Shown here in pieces: positions 46,499 through 52,004 of a DNA stretch of 64,000 nt; position 1 is the stretch's first letter; each line of letters starts with the position of its first letter. The position numbers and the translations under genes are program-made. This stretch comes from Paraglaciecola sp. L1A13 (GTDB taxonomy: Bacteria; Pseudomonadota; Gammaproteobacteria; Enterobacterales; Alteromonadaceae), in the NCBI RefSeq assembly GCF_009796745.1, contig NZ_CP047024.1, positions 496,001-560,000 on the forward strand. Direction: 5' to 3'. The notes beneath the pieces were generated by a model. That model saw only the letters and a list, made by a program, of their open reading frames with translations, did no database searches and had not been told where the DNA came from.

Positions 46499-46823
46499 TG
46501 CGCTCTACTGCGTCAACCAAAGGAATAAAACCCGCCGGGGTGGACAGATTAATATAGCCAGTTTGGCGCTCTAGTAATATGTCGTTAAATTGCGTTGGGC
46601 GGTTAACCACTGGGGTGCATGCAATCTCTATGGCATCAGTATTAGCGAAATGACTGGGGCCGCCTGATGCAGCAAAAGCAATATCCAATTCAGTGTGTTC
46701 AACACGCGTAGCAAACCGGTACTGACTTAAATTTTTAAGCACTAGTTGCATTAAATCGCGCTCGTTTTCAATGGTGTGTAATTTGCGTCGCAAAGAGTCG
46801 GACGCATGGAAAATGTCAATCAA
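46467..46823 (-). CDS. Hypothetical protein with probable TTG start
   Basis: I set the start at a TTG (46823) because GGAG sits seven bases before it and this places it 22 bases after the upstream stop; longer readings have no ribosome site. The 118-residue product (MIDIFHASDSLRRKL...) has no signal peptide. Its second half (GPSHFANTDAIEIACTP... GYINLSTPAGFIPLVDAVERNGFLHKKLL) looks like a globular domain that I do not recognise. It lies between the CPXCG protein and the transglutaminase-like gene. Confidence 0.65.
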   Translation of the reverse strand: MIDIFHASDSLRRKLHTIENERDLMQLVLKNLSQYRFATRVEHTELDIAFAASGGPSHFANTDAIEIACTPVVNRPTQFNDILLERQTGYINLSTPAGFIPLVDAVERNGFLHKKLLS

Positions 46824-46845: not shown

Positions 46846-47043
46846 CTATTCGCTGTCGGTACGAGCGTGAATAATAAAGTCGTTATCATCGTCTTGGGTA
46901 ATAAGGATTTCTATAGGGCTACAACAGACCTGACAATCAGCAATCAGTTGTTGGCCCAGATCGTTATCTTGATCAATTTCAATATCATTGATTTCCATAC
47001 AATATGGGCAGCTGAATTTAGCATTTGAAGTAAGGCTCATCAT
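46846..47043 (-). CDS. CPXCG-motif cysteine-rich protein
   Basis: This 65-residue protein has two cysteine pairs (C-P-Y-C and C-Q-V-C-C) that likely bind one zinc, as in the CPXCG-motif cysteine-rich family. The rest is acidic. A GGAGAA lies before the ATG. It heads the three-gene minus-strand cluster to 45488. Function unknown. Confidence 0.85.
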   Translation of the reverse strand: MMSLTSNAKFSCPYCMEINDIEIDQDNDLGQQLIADCQVCCSPIEILITQDDDNDFIIHARTDSE

Positions 47044-47110
47044 GGTTCTCCTATAAGAGCCCTATATGGTAAAGGAAGATCCCCCTCTGAGCCTACCGTT
47101 TTATCACGGT

Positions 47111-47773
47111 TTATTTTTTAAAACTTGTTACATACTCTACAAATGCTTTATTTGCTACTTTGCGATCCTCTGCAATTTTCTGCACTTCAGGTAGTTCATT
47201 TAACTTAGCCATCAATGCTTTAGCGCCATTAGAGCCTTCGAGCAGGTCTATATCGTACAATTTTTTAGCCACTGAGCTAGCTAAATCAACGCTGTATAAA
47301 AACATAATGTCAGCGGCGCTAAATTCCTCACCAGCCACGTAAGGTGAGAAAGACGCTAATCTATTTAATCCTGTGATGCCTCGGAAAAGTGCGCGTTTTA
47401 CATCCTTGCGCGTTTCATCACTAACCTTGCTGCCAAAAAAGGCTTCTTGGTGGCAGCGACGGGCAGGCAATTCAAGATATAATTCGATGAATTTGACGAG
47501 CTCTTTTACTCTTGCTTGTGCGAACGGGTCGGATGGATACAACGGCTTATCAGGATATTTAGCGTCTAGATATTCCATAATAATGTTGGTTTCAACGATA
47601 ATGCCATCTTCGGTTTCAAGAGCGGGAACTTTACCCATGGGGCTTTTGGCTAAAAACTCAGGTTCTTGATTAGGGTAAACAATTTCAACTTCGTAATCTA
47701 AGCCTTTACGATACAAGGCTAATTTGATCATATTAAAGTAATTACTGACGTCAAATCCGTACAATTTAAGCAT
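47111..47773 (-). CDS. Glutathione S-transferase family protein
   Basis: The 220-residue protein has an N-terminal thioredoxin-like GST domain (MLKLYGFDVSNYFNMIKLAL, with cis-proline KVPALE and V-E-T-N in place of the usual ES) and a helical C-terminal domain. It is a cytosolic GST of unknown substrate. It appears monocistronic and divergent from the LacI gene. Confidence 0.92.
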   Translation of the reverse strand: MLKLYGFDVSNYFNMIKLALYRKGLDYEVEIVYPNQEPEFLAKSPMGKVPALETEDGIIVETNIIMEYLDAKYPDKPLYPSDPFAQARVKELVKFIELYLELPARRCHQEAFFGSKVSDETRKDVKRALFRGITGLNRLASFSPYVAGEEFSAADIMFLYSVDLASSVAKKLYDIDLLEGSNGAKALMAKLNELPEVQKIAEDRKVANKAFVEYVTSFKK

Positions 47774-47957
47774 GGTGATTCTCGGGTTTTTATATGAAGT
47801 TCAATAATCAGTCAAGTTGCTAGGCTACTCAACATCGAAGTATTGATAGATATCTATAAGTGATTTTCACCTTGTTATTGAGCCCTGTTGAGCTGGCGAC
47901 AATACTGTCAATCTTGCTAAATTAAGCCCTTAATAATGTTAGTGGAACGTCGCGGTT

Positions 47958-48992
47958 ATCAATAAAAAACTCAACCTTAAACAAGTATCAGTGCAGCTTG
48001 GTGTATCCACTGCAACTGTATCGAATGCGTTTAATCGCCCGGTTCAGTTGTCAGCAAAGTTACGTGAACGTATTTTGCGTGAATCTGCGGAGTTGGGTTA
48101 TCACGGGCCAAACTTTGCCGCCCGCACGTTGCGTAAAGGGGAGTCTGGTGTTATTGCCGTAGTTCTTGCCGATTCAATTAGTTATAGCTTGTCAGATCCG
48201 GTTGCGAGTCAGTTTTTGCAAGGTGTAGCAGAGGTATTGGTTAACGAGAACAAACAATTACTTTTGTTATCCAGTGCGTCTGATCAGCAGACCCAAAGTA
48301 GTTCTGAATCGTTACCTGATGGGTTTGTGTTTTATGGCGCGCCCGCAGGGGATATTTTTGAACGGGTTCAGCGAGGTGGAAAACCACTAATAGCTGTGGA
48401 CTTTGAAACCAACGATAGCGCATCAGTCAATATCAATAACGAGGACGGCGCTTATACAGTGGCAAATCACGGGTTAGCCACTAAGCCGGACAGCGTGGCT
48501 ATTTTGGGTTTGCGTTTGGTAGACTCTAACCGTATTTGTCGATTAACGGCGGTAGATATTGATCTTGAGTCAAAAGAAATATCGCGCAATCGTTTAAAAG
48601 GCTATGTGCGAGCGTTAACCGATAACCAGATTATGTTTTCCCCTAGTCAAATCTGGCATATCCCACTTAATACACCTGATATGGCAGAAATAGCTGCGAG
48701 AGAAGCCCTCACGTTAAGTCCATTACCTAAAATGGTTTTATGCATGAGTGACGTGATCGCATTGGCGGTTATTCGCATAGCGGGGGAATTGAACATCGAC
48801 ATTCCAAAGGATTTGCACGTTACCGGGTTTGATGACATACCTGAAGCACAACGCAGTGTCCCCAGTCTTACCACTGTGTGTCAGCGAAGTCTGGAAAAAG
48901 GCCGAGTAGCCGCAGGATTGTTATTTAGTCACGATACTAAGCAAGTAGTGTTGTTAGATACTCACCTAGTGGTGCGTCAAAGTTGCCCGTAG
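47958..48992 (+). CDS. LacI-family regulator with no canonical start in place
   Basis: The helix-turn-helix is intact in sequence (LNLKQVSVQLGVSTATVSNAFNRP), followed by a full periplasmic-binding-protein-like sensor ending VVLLDTHLVVRQS. In this frame a TAG lies at 47940, and no ATG, GTG or TTG precedes the first helix; the first is GTG at 47991, inside the HTH. Either a rare ATC start (47958) is used or the start codon was lost. It probably controlled the sugar genes whose remnants lie just downstream. Confidence 0.75.
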   Translation: MNKKLNLKQVSVQLGVSTATVSNAFNRPVQLSAKLRERILRESAELGYHGPNFAARTLRKGESGVIAVVLADSISYSLSDPVASQFLQGVAEVLVNENKQLLLLSSASDQQTQSSSESLPDGFVFYGAPAGDIFERVQRGGKPLIAVDFETNDSASVNINNEDGAYTVANHGLATKPDSVAILGLRLVDSNRICRLTAVDIDLESKEISRNRLKGYVRALTDNQIMFSPSQIWHIPLNTPDMAEIAAREALTLSPLPKMVLCMSDVIALAVIRIAGELNIDIPKDLHVTGFDDIPEAQRSVPSLTTVCQRSLEKGRVAAGLLFSHDTKQVVLLDTHLVVRQSCP

Positions 48993-49099
48993 TCAAAGAG
49001 GGTGAGGTGCTGTCAGCCTGAATTGATGGCTGGCAACATTTATTATTTGGCTGACGTGTTAGCCTATAGTGTTTTAATAAAGCATACAGATACATTGAC

Positions 49100-49702
49100 T
49101 TATGCTTGCGGCGTCAGCCACATGACTTGGTAGGGTTTCAGTATTAGTATTAGTATTAGTATTTTTGGTTTTGGGGTTTTAACCAAGTCAGATAAAAAAT
49201 CCTGCCAAATATCACCGTTATCCAGTCCCAAATATGTGCTGCTAATATTTTGTTTGTGTTCGCTGAAATTGCATATGGCGACTAACTTTTTACCGTCATC
49301 CGTATAACGTTCATAAGCAAAAATAGCCGCATTATCACTGTTCAAAATACGCGTTTCGGCTTGTCCAAATACACGGTGTTGTTTACGTATGGCAATGCGT
49401 TGCTGTAAACCTGTTGTTACTTTATGTTGCGGTGTGTGGAGGGTTTTACTTTGCTCAATTACTTCGTCTGTTACCGGTATACGGTGTACCCAGCGCCCGT
49501 CGTGTTTTTTACTGTCATCTCGCTCGTAGCGATAGTCGTTCAATAGGGCTAATTCGTCTCCCGAATAGATTAGCGGTATACAACCGATACTCAAAATAAT
49601 GCTATGCACCATTAAAATACGGGCAATCGCATGGTCAATTAATGTGTCATTGTGGCTATTTAGGCCTTGCTCTAAACCAGCCAAAGACGCAAGGGAACCG
49701 CT
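49100..49702 (-). pseudogene. C-terminal remnant of an amylosucrase-like glycoside hydrolase (GH13)
   Basis: The frame encodes about 200 residues that match the end of amylosucrase-type enzymes: SGSLASLAGLEQGL, the GGIPLIYSGDE-like GCIPLIYSGDELALLNDY block, GRWVHR and the C-terminal KPYQVMWL. The catalytic barrel is missing. Homology stops at about 49702, where it meets the TonB-receptor remnant. There is no proper start codon; the first near start is TTG. A hexanucleotide repeat near the end adds ILILILIL. Confidence 0.82.
49140..49163. repeat. AGTATT hexanucleotide repeat, four units
   Basis: Four perfect tandem copies of AGTATT lie in the C-terminal part of the amylosucrase-like remnant. 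Read on the minus strand they encode alternating Ile-Leu. Because the unit is six bases, copy-number changes keep the frame. Confidence 0.9.
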
Positions 49703-50011
49703 TATTATGCCATGGGTGGTTTTGAAGTGCGTTTAGCAGGGACTGACCGTTCTGAGTTCAGTACCTATCAACGTGGTGGTTCAAACAAAATTGAAACATC
49801 CACCCGTAATGCGGAAACTCTACTGGACGCGCAGATCAGTTACGACTTTGAAGATTCTGACATCGATTATTTACAAGGATTACGCGTTTCGCTACAGGGC
49901 ACTAATTTGACTGATGTGGACGAAGAAACGGTAGATGACAATGGTATTGTGACCACGCGTCGTCAGTTCGGTCCGTCTTATATGGTTAACGTTAATTATG
50001 CCTTCTATTAA
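49703..50011 (+). pseudogene. C-terminal remnant of a TonB-dependent receptor
   Basis: About 100 residues of a TonB-dependent receptor barrel end remain: GGFEVRLAGTDRSEF, ETLLDAQISYDF, LQGLRVSLQGTNLTD, RQFGPSYMVNVNYAFY with the terminal aromatic typical of these barrels. The plug and most strands are missing. It begins where the amylosucrase-like remnant stops. A strong terminator follows, as for an intact gene. It was probably the sugar receptor of the same locus. Confidence 0.85.
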
Positions 50012-50027
50012 ATAGTACAAAGTAATG

Positions 50028-50062
50028 GCCCCTCAGCGTCTTCGCTGCAGGGGCTTTTTTTG
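50028..50062 (+). terminator. Rho-independent terminator of the receptor gene
   Basis: A GC-rich stem (50028-50038 with 50043-50054, one bulge) is followed by seven T. Confidence 0.88.
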
Positions 50063-50234
50063 TTTAATTGATTGAGCGTTGCCAGTTACCAGAATGACTA
50101 AATATTAGCGGCAACACTGGCGCCTCTTACTAATGTGCTGCACCATAATGAATTTTTAACGCGTTTTACCAAACAAGGTTAACGTCTGCTGATTTTGCGT
50201 TATACTGCGCGGGTCTTAATAAGTTGGGTGATAT

Positions 50235-50681
50235 ATGAAAGTTTGTGGTGTTGAAATAAATAGTAATGATGTGAATGTGTGTTTGTTATCGTTGGCTGAA
50301 GAGGTGTTTCAGTTACCAGATTTTCGCAGTCGTCGCTTGACCTTGACCGATATAAATAGCACGAAAGACTTACGTTATTTTCAGCAAACTTTTGCCAAGT
50401 TAATGGCTGACTACTCAGTGGATAAAGTGGTGATTCGCCAGCGTCCAATGAAAGGAAAATTTGCCGGTGGTGCCGTGGGTTTTAAACTGGAAGCCGCTAT
50501 CGAGCTGATTGCTGATTTAGATGTGACGATAATGTCACCCACTGATATTAAAGAATCACTCAAGCGCAACCCTGTGCATATTCCTTACGGCGATACAGGT
50601 CTTAAAATTTATCAAGAAGTGGCGTTTAGTACGGCGTTCGCTTATTTGATGAAAGATAAGTACGCCCCGAAAGAAGACTAG
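50235..50681 (+). CDS. DUF3010 family protein
   Basis: The 148-residue protein matches DUF3010 of marine gammaproteobacteria; function is unknown. The start MKVCGVEINSNDVNVCLL and the pattern KVVIRQRP...GGAVGFKLEAAIELIAD...VTIMSPTDIKESLK recall an RNase H/RuvC-like fold, but the key acidic positions are altered, so nuclease activity is uncertain. It ends at a strong terminator. Confidence 0.85.
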   Translation: MKVCGVEINSNDVNVCLLSLAEEVFQLPDFRSRRLTLTDINSTKDLRYFQQTFAKLMADYSVDKVVIRQRPMKGKFAGGAVGFKLEAAIELIADLDVTIMSPTDIKESLKRNPVHIPYGDTGLKIYQEVAFSTAFAYLMKDKYAPKED

Positions 50682-50708
50682 TTATATTGGATTTTGCTAT
50701 TTACTAAT

Positions 50709-50736
50709 AAAAAAGGCGTTTAGCGCCTTTTTTAAT
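50709..50736. terminator. Rho-independent terminator
   Basis: A 10-bp stem (50709-50718 with 50724-50733, loop TTTAG) with A- and T-runs lies between DUF3010 and the convergent Nramp-like gene. Confidence 0.85.
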
Positions 50737-50777
50737 GCCCGTATTTTACCAACTGTTATGCGTTATAAGAATAGTGG

Positions 50778-52004
50778 TTACATTATCGAGAATGATTTAA
50801 GCACTAAGCGAATGCCTAAGCCAACAGACACTAAAAATACTAGAGCCCCCAATCCATTGGCTAACAAGCCATTGGTGTGCTTGCCTAGCAATGCTTTGTT
50901 GTTCATGGTGTAAAGTAAGAAAGCGGCGATAATGGGTAGCAGTAACCCGTTGGCGAATTGAGCGCCGATAATGATATTAATGGGCTTTGCTCCACTCAAG
51001 GCAAATACCACCCCGACTATCAAGACACTTAAGCTCACAGAGCGAAACAGTTTTTCCCGTGTTTTTTCACTGGGGTTAATAATTTCTGTTATGGCATAAG
51101 CCGTTGCAAGTGGCGCGGTCAGTGAGCTGCTTAATCCTGCTGCGAGAAGTCCTGCCCCTAATAAGTACTTGGAAAAAGAACCAAAAAGAGGCTCCAGTTG
51201 AATCGCCATATCAGCCGCACTGCTTGCCCCTAACCCTCTTGAAAATAAACTGGCTGCGGCTGTGGATACAATAAACATGGCGACTAAGCCTCCTAAGCCA
51301 ATGGAAATTACTGAGTCAGCTCGGGCGGCAGGTAAGTCAGCCTCACCTTGCCAACGCGCTTTGGCTGCTGAAGCATGTAAAAATAGATTATATGGCACTA
51401 CGGTTGTGCCGATTAACGCAACCACAGTAATCAAACTGTCGTCGGGTAGCGTTGGGGTAAACAATCCATGGGTAAACGCTGATAAATCAGGTTGGCTGAC
51501 GATAAATGTGCCGATAAAAGCCACGCCCATAAAGAGCACCAGAACCATTAGTAAGCGTTCAACCTGACGATAGCTACCCCGCCATAGAGCTAATCCTGCG
51601 AGGGTTGCAATGCTCAGTATGGTCCAGGTAAAAGCCGCTTCGTTTGGCTCACTTAGAATTGCACTAACCCCCAATGCTGCCCCAGACAAATTACCGGCTT
51701 CGTAGGCAGCGTTGCCACCGTATAAGGCAACGGTTATGAGGATAAACAACGGCCATTTCCAAATAGAGAATTGCAGGCTTTCACGCAACGCTTCACCTAA
51801 GCCTTTTTGCGCTATGGTGCCCAAACGACCTGACATTTCTTGAAAAATAATGGTGGCGATGGTGGCAAACAGCAAAGCCCACAACAGCACGTAGCCATAA
51901 TTAGCCCCTGCCAGTGTGCAAACCGTCACTGTACCTGGACCAATAAACGCTGCGGCGACCAGTGCACCGGGTCCGACATTTTTAAAAATATTCAGTGAGG
52001 GCAT
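50778..52004 (-). CDS. Nramp-superfamily transporter with atypical metal site
   Basis: The 408-residue protein has eleven membrane segments in the Nramp/LeuT fold. The TM1 motif, D-P-G-N in true Nramp metal transporters, reads G22-P-G-T25 here. The TM6 M-P-H-N is V203-P-Y-N206. Both metal ligands (Asp and Met) are thus missing, so transport of manganese or iron is doubtful. It may belong to an Nramp-related clade with another substrate. It is divergent from the oxoprolinase gene with about 200 bases between, so sharing a substrate pathway is possible. Confidence 0.87.
   Translation of the reverse strand: MPSLNIFKNVGPGALVAAAFIGPGTVTVCTLAGANYGYVLLWALLFATIATIIFQEMSGRLGTIAQKGLGEALRESLQFSIWKWPLFILITVALYGGNAAYEAGNLSGAALGVSAILSEPNEAAFTWTILSIATLAGLALWRGSYRQVERLLMVLVLFMGVAFIGTFIVSQPDLSAFTHGLFTPTLPDDSLITVVALIGTTVVPYNLFLHASAAKARWQGEADLPAARADSVISIGLGGLVAMFIVSTAAASLFSRGLGASSAADMAIQLEPLFGSFSKYLLGAGLLAAGLSSSLTAPLATAYAITEIINPSEKTREKLFRSVSLSVLIVGVVFALSGAKPINIIIGAQFANGLLLPIIAAFLLYTMNNKALLGKHTNGLLANGLGALVFLVSVGLGIRLVLKSFSIM

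Follow-up and report, generated by a model that had tools for sequence, protein, structure and literature searches.

The sux locus of Xanthomonas campestris brings together a receptor (suxA), an amylosucrase (suxB), a transporter (suxC) and a LacI-type repressor (suxR) (PMC1790865, in the passages on the locus). As described there, sucrose uptake fell to 3.5% in a suxA mutant and to 2.1% in a suxC mutant, suxA was dispensable for growth on sucrose, and a suxR mutant overexpressed the locus (PMC1790865). The authors further state, in the same part of the report, that the amylosucrase gene is well conserved solely in Caulobacter crescentus (PMC1790865). A separate body of work concerns spontaneous small deletions in bacteria, for which a homology cut-off of 8 bp or more was deduced for expected true deletions (PMC3411829, in the relevant section).

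The DNA examined here (the window) is a stretch of 64,000 nucleotides from Paraglaciecola sp. L1A13 (NZ_CP047024.1, positions 496,001 to 560,000), a strain with a genome of one contig of 4,965,707 bases (4.97 Mb). It very probably carries the trace of a single recent deletion of ~5.65 kb, by which a sux-like locus for sucrose use lost its core. The gene order across window positions 47111-50681 begins with an intact GST-family gene on the minus strand (47111-47773; Pfam GST_N and GST_C; 94% identical to P. polaris) and a full-length, SuxR-like LacI-family repressor on the plus strand (47958-48992; 93.6% identical to P. polaris). These are followed by a minus-strand amylosucrase (GH13) stub that retains the C-terminal part only (49100-49701), a plus-strand TonB-dependent receptor stub comprising the last 102 codons and the stop (49702-50011), the receptor terminator on the plus strand (50027-50060), and an intact plus-strand DUF3010 gene (50235-50681; PF11215, E 1.2e-54; 93% identical to P. 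polaris). The terminator, which an earlier note on this DNA had listed among the remnants, is indeed present as a hairpin and T run; the hairpin (~50027-50060) folds at -25.4 kcal/mol (z -5.4), a value equaled by 0 of 200 shuffles. It was not picked up by a simple pattern scan; the stem is interrupted by a bulge of one base.

The corresponding region of P. polaris (L034) runs from GST through LacI, a divergent amylosucrase, an MFS transporter and a TonB receptor of 967 residues to DUF3010. With window positions 47001-51000 as the query, 47001-49704 aligns to L034 3410-6095 (84% DNA identity) and 49697-50101 aligns to L034 11740-12146 (87%), the second block continuing past the receptor stop. 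The match is far beyond chance; both flanks are collinear with the intact relative and the middle is missing, which is the signature of a deletion scar with a pair of pseudogenes. The claim that both genes had lost their 5' ends is borne out at the protein level, with the enzyme stub corresponding to residues 468-661 of the 664 in the P. polaris amylosucrase (78% identity) and the receptor stub to residues 864-967 of 967 (97%). Family models are weak on the stubs alone: the receptor stub gives no Pfam match by itself, and the enzyme stub falls just under the Pfam cut-offs for the C-terminal domains of amylosucrase and maltogenic amylase. The stubs are identified by their match to intact relatives.

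The same comparison agrees with the proposal that one deletion took the 5' parts of two divergent genes together with everything between them, as 5,652 bases are missing relative to P. polaris when the junction is set between 49701 and 49702. The missing piece includes the N-terminal two thirds of the amylosucrase, where the catalytic motifs lie; the divergent promoter region, which contains a shared palindrome; the entire MFS transporter gene; and ~865 of the 967 receptor residues. In the P. polaris enzyme, the three acidic motifs that mark the GH13 amylosucrase catalytic domain, and that we take to be the catalytic-region motifs of amylosucrases, begin at residues 305, 346 and 410, whereas the window stub begins at ~470 and has no such domain. 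The P. polaris transporter belongs to MFS_1 and the receptor to TIGR01782. Elsewhere in the 4.97 Mb genome of the studied strain there is no second amylosucrase (best-scoring other match 28% identical) and no close transporter (26%). By the four genes that define a sux-like sucrose CUT locus, P. polaris has a complete copy, whereas the window has LacI alone at full length, two stubs and no transporter. The enzyme points to sucrose as the probable substrate of the lost locus.

The reading frames on the two sides meet where the earlier note had placed them. On the minus strand, the amylosucrase frame stays open between 49702 and its stop (49100-49102); on the plus strand, the receptor frame does so between 49703 and its stop (50009-50011). 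The junction, predicted to lie within 49695-49710, is narrowed by base-by-base comparison to 49696-49702. Identity of the left flank to P. polaris extends through 49701, and receptor-side sequence runs from 49703 on. Base 49702 is unlike either P. polaris flank; its T fits a GCT alanine codon, as in the receptors of three other genus genomes (G006, G007 and G011). The junction had also been flagged as a place to look for short repeats, and on this point the outcome is mixed: there is no clear repeat, and homology amounts to 2 bases with certainty and 6 at most, depending on two third-codon bases of the ancestor. An apparent 8 bp repeat at 49697-49704, suggested by the overlap of the blastn blocks, was dropped when base-by-base comparison revealed mismatches. 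No transposase was recognized by eye among the ORF lists of the locus.

A second sequence bears on whether the junction is real. The protein search with the amylosucrase stub returned P0001, a match of 192 residues (98% identity) that begins at the same TTG, has Gly for Cys and is two residues shorter in the tract encoded by a hexamer repeat. This repeat, four perfect copies of AGTATT at 49140-49163 within the amylosucrase stub, is without counterpart in the P. polaris protein and is apparently one unit longer in the window than in P0001, likely through slippage. The LacI search returned P0030 (333 residues, 98%; source lgn), and the two proteins probably lie on one 16.6 kb contig, the longest contig being 16654 for both, although the source field of P0001 is empty. 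Since P0001 and P0030 carry differences of their own, the second sequence does not duplicate the present assembly, and P0001 has the appearance of this scar as carried by a different strain. The second sequence backs the enzyme side and LacI only, because a protein search with the receptor stub (23 matches, best 87%) gave no near-identical copy from the same species; the window's own receptor stub was likewise absent from the matches, and the frame may simply be uncalled.

The evidence at the junction was weighed against three other accounts of the two short frames. An error of assembly or scaffolding at this point, with the intact locus really present, is very unlikely: the strain is represented by a single assembly and the second sequence did not yield the scar's receptor side, but there is no long repeat at the junction, the truncated enzyme frame recurs in a sequence with its own small differences, and the single 4.97 Mb contig holds no other amylosucrase or close transporter. 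A receptor stub copied from a paralogous receptor elsewhere in the genome is equally hard to credit. An intact paralog is present at C1:2028028-2030943 (L003 7029-9944), matches the stub at 84% DNA identity and encodes a protein 90-92% identical to the P. polaris receptor; yet the stub is nearer to the receptor of the P. polaris locus, with 87% DNA identity in an alignment that runs beyond the stop to 50101, and it precedes the same DUF3010 neighbor as in P. polaris. It is extremely improbable that the short frames are new small genes created by the rearrangement. In favor of new genes, neither frame has closed and the second sequence has the enzyme stub as well, but openness is explained by youth, the enzyme frame has no usual start codon apart from TTG, promoter-like sites number 2 compared to a shuffle mean of 3.1, and the enzyme stub has Cys where Gly is found in five of five other species and in P0001.

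The event is, in kind, an ordinary deletion. The 3' ends of the amylosucrase and receptor genes are joined head to head, with LacI left in place, and the chromosomal deletion would have arisen through illegitimate joining with little or no homology. Before the deletion, sucrose would have been taken up via the receptor and then the transporter and split by the amylosucrase, with LacI controlling expression; afterward, LacI would be an orphan on which selection has weakened. G015, the nearest relative, has a larger deletion, which would be a separate event.

The deletion appears recent when set against the split from G015. Synonymous distance to G015 is ~0.22 (GST 0.217, DUF3010 0.223), and to P. 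polaris it is 0.56-0.98 (five genes). Across the two stubs, ~22 nonsynonymous changes are inferred, a number that covers the entire window branch since P. polaris, compared to ~77 expected over the time since the G015 split alone had the stubs been free to change (Poisson 1.8e-13). The loss is considered recent because neutral decay over the time since the G015 split would have put far more amino-acid changes into the stubs than they have, and because neither of two further tests, for relaxed selection, shows acceleration in the stubs: derived residues number 10 in the window vs. 12 in P. polaris for the enzyme and 1 vs. 2 for the receptor, and a comparison of how radical the changes are, over 7 in the window and 12 in P. 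polaris, gives p 0.19 (junction codon excluded from the count). The receptor stub gives a 95% upper bound on the age of the deletion of within ~19% of the time since the G015 split; the bound becomes 41% if all window-branch changes in both stubs postdate the deletion.

The locus is also damaged in G015, where the LacI gene is itself cut into and little more than short 3' fragments of the enzyme and receptor genes are kept. This different, larger deletion is most likely independent of that in the window, as judged from rates, since event counting alone does not tell two separate deletions from a shared one followed by a second in G015. An older deletion that predates the G015 split, followed by a second deletion in G015 that removed most of the stubs, is allowed by event counting and by the short enzyme and receptor 3' pieces that G015 keeps; it is nonetheless unlikely, as both stubs are open in the window (chance of no stop 0.012 over the time since the split, substitutions only) and the nonsynonymous changes are too few in each, with 1 against ~25 expected in the receptor and ~21 against ~51 in the enzyme. 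Separate deletions at different points in two sister lineages raise the further idea that loss of the locus was favored, not just tolerated, which is unlikely. It would fit with the lack of any perfect operator in both genomes, and with a lineage that retains a near-copy of the receptor at another site while its targetless repressor wears down. Were it so, carrying the locus may be selected against, for example where an unneeded receptor is open to phage; absence of the sugar from the habitat is an alternative example of a cause.

The intact cluster of LacI, amylosucrase and receptor that the earlier note expected in related bacteria is found in the genus, with the addition of an MFS transporter between the two genes that are truncated in the window. 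Among 22 genus genomes, 10 have an amylosucrase that is full length, not a conserved short frame, one (the studied genome) has the stub, and 11, G015 included, are without a match at the threshold of E 1e-60. All 10 full-length amylosucrases are open from about residue 22 on (nine re-translated, and the P. polaris frame read in the locus), and relatives such as P. chathamensis start the enzyme with Met near P. polaris residue 22. Stops flagged in 5 of the 10 were set aside, since they fall either upstream of about residue 22 in P. polaris numbering or beyond the limits of the aligned gene. A literature search on Paraglaciecola amylosucrase found no match.

Next to the intact receptor paralog of the studied genome lie two genes that presumably encode flavin-dependent halogenases. 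The receptor of the P. polaris sucrose locus is closer to the type of this paralog (90-92% identity) than to its counterparts in the G006, G007 and G011 loci (81-83%), which hints at a receptor swap. No match to the P. polaris receptor was found at E 1e-8 in P. chathamensis (L036 5834-8694) or P. mesophila KMM 241 (L037 5074-7932), where ~2.8 kb separates the amylosucrase and transporter genes, and these species possibly carry a different receptor there.

The surviving repressor has an unusual probable start. Read from 47991, the protein has a Peripla_BP_3 domain above the cut-off and a LacI HTH domain just below it; GTG at 47991 is the first common start, and the probable start codon is ATC at 47958. 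Across nine loci this codon is ATC in eight and ATT in one, no in-frame ATG, GTG or TTG occurs between the last stop and the ATC (four records, upstream frame translated), and the 344-residue LacI protein of P. agarilytica begins MNKKL at the same codon. A conserved rare start codon of this type may limit repressor synthesis.

The predicted operator of the locus is the palindrome CTTAAWCGWTTAAG, which was derived by comparing promoter regions at the intact loci of P. polaris, P. chathamensis, G006, G007 and G011. A perfect copy is present in each of the 10 loci that have an intact amylosucrase, always upstream of the amylosucrase gene, and five of the 10 were absent from the derivation set. 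The best match in the window, at 46726, has two mismatches, and perfect sites number zero in the entire genomes of the studied strain and G015, compared to two in P. polaris (G009), three in G006 and two in G007. Sites with one mismatch equal a reversed-pattern control in the studied strain (3 vs. 3) and in G015 (5 vs. 5), and totals with one mismatch allowed are 10 vs. 7 in P. polaris, 9 vs. 5 in G006 and 7 vs. 5 in G007; as mismatch totals are near the control even in intact genomes, the signal resides in the perfect sites. Perfect copies outside the locus in P. polaris (G009:C141:28954) and G006 (G006:C1:2787208) may mark further members of the regulon. The perfect palindrome is also upstream of LacI in G007 (L038 6526), G006 (L039 13116) and G005 (L041 4560), which suggests that LacI controls itself in these genomes; no perfect copy is upstream of LacI in P. 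polaris or the window.

With no perfect copy of the predicted operator in the genome, the window LacI is apparently a repressor without a remaining target. It differs from P0030 at five positions, and at all five the window residue is unique to it among the 10 sequences of an alignment (one partial row is without the first of these positions). The imbalance is 5 vs. 0 against P0030 and 9 vs. 2 on the longer branch, each with p ~0.06; these changes, though statistically weak, fit an orphan repressor under weaker selection.

The window offers a clean case in which a carbohydrate locus was lost recently and the loss can be dated. What was deleted, where the ends were joined, which repressor survived and an apparently independent loss in a sister lineage are visible together, and this makes it a usable example for asking about the pace at which a regulator decays after losing its regulon. 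It is also a caution for annotation, as a LacI gene and a receptor 3' end in the window do not imply sucrose use. Beyond what the earlier note had read from the scar, the analysis adds that the deleted piece held a transporter gene and a predicted operator, that a second sequence has the truncated enzyme frame, that the loss is recent and probably has a parallel in the sister lineage, and that the repressor is apparently orphaned.

Compared to solved amylosucrases, the P. polaris enzyme aligns almost full length and through the motifs (residues 46-659, E about 1e-197 to 2e-197), the best row being PDB 5n6v and others including 1g5a, which we take to be the amylosucrase of Neisseria polysaccharea; by contrast, the window stub starts downstream of all three motifs. 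The intact relatives cluster an amylosucrase, an MFS transporter, a TonB-Xanth-Caul receptor (TIGR01782) and a LacI-family repressor and, compared by kind of gene, these are the same four as in the sux locus outlined in PMC1790865. The likeness does not extend to layout or content: suxA and suxB form one operon in the Xanthomonas locus as given in that account, whereas the Paraglaciecola amylosucrase and receptor genes are on opposite strands, and the window keeps just the repressor and two 3' stubs. The event itself resembles the spontaneous small deletions treated in the relevant section of PMC3411829 in being a few kilobases in size with little homology, and differs from them in that junction homology is 2 bases with certainty and 6 at most, compared to the 8 bp cut-off deduced there.
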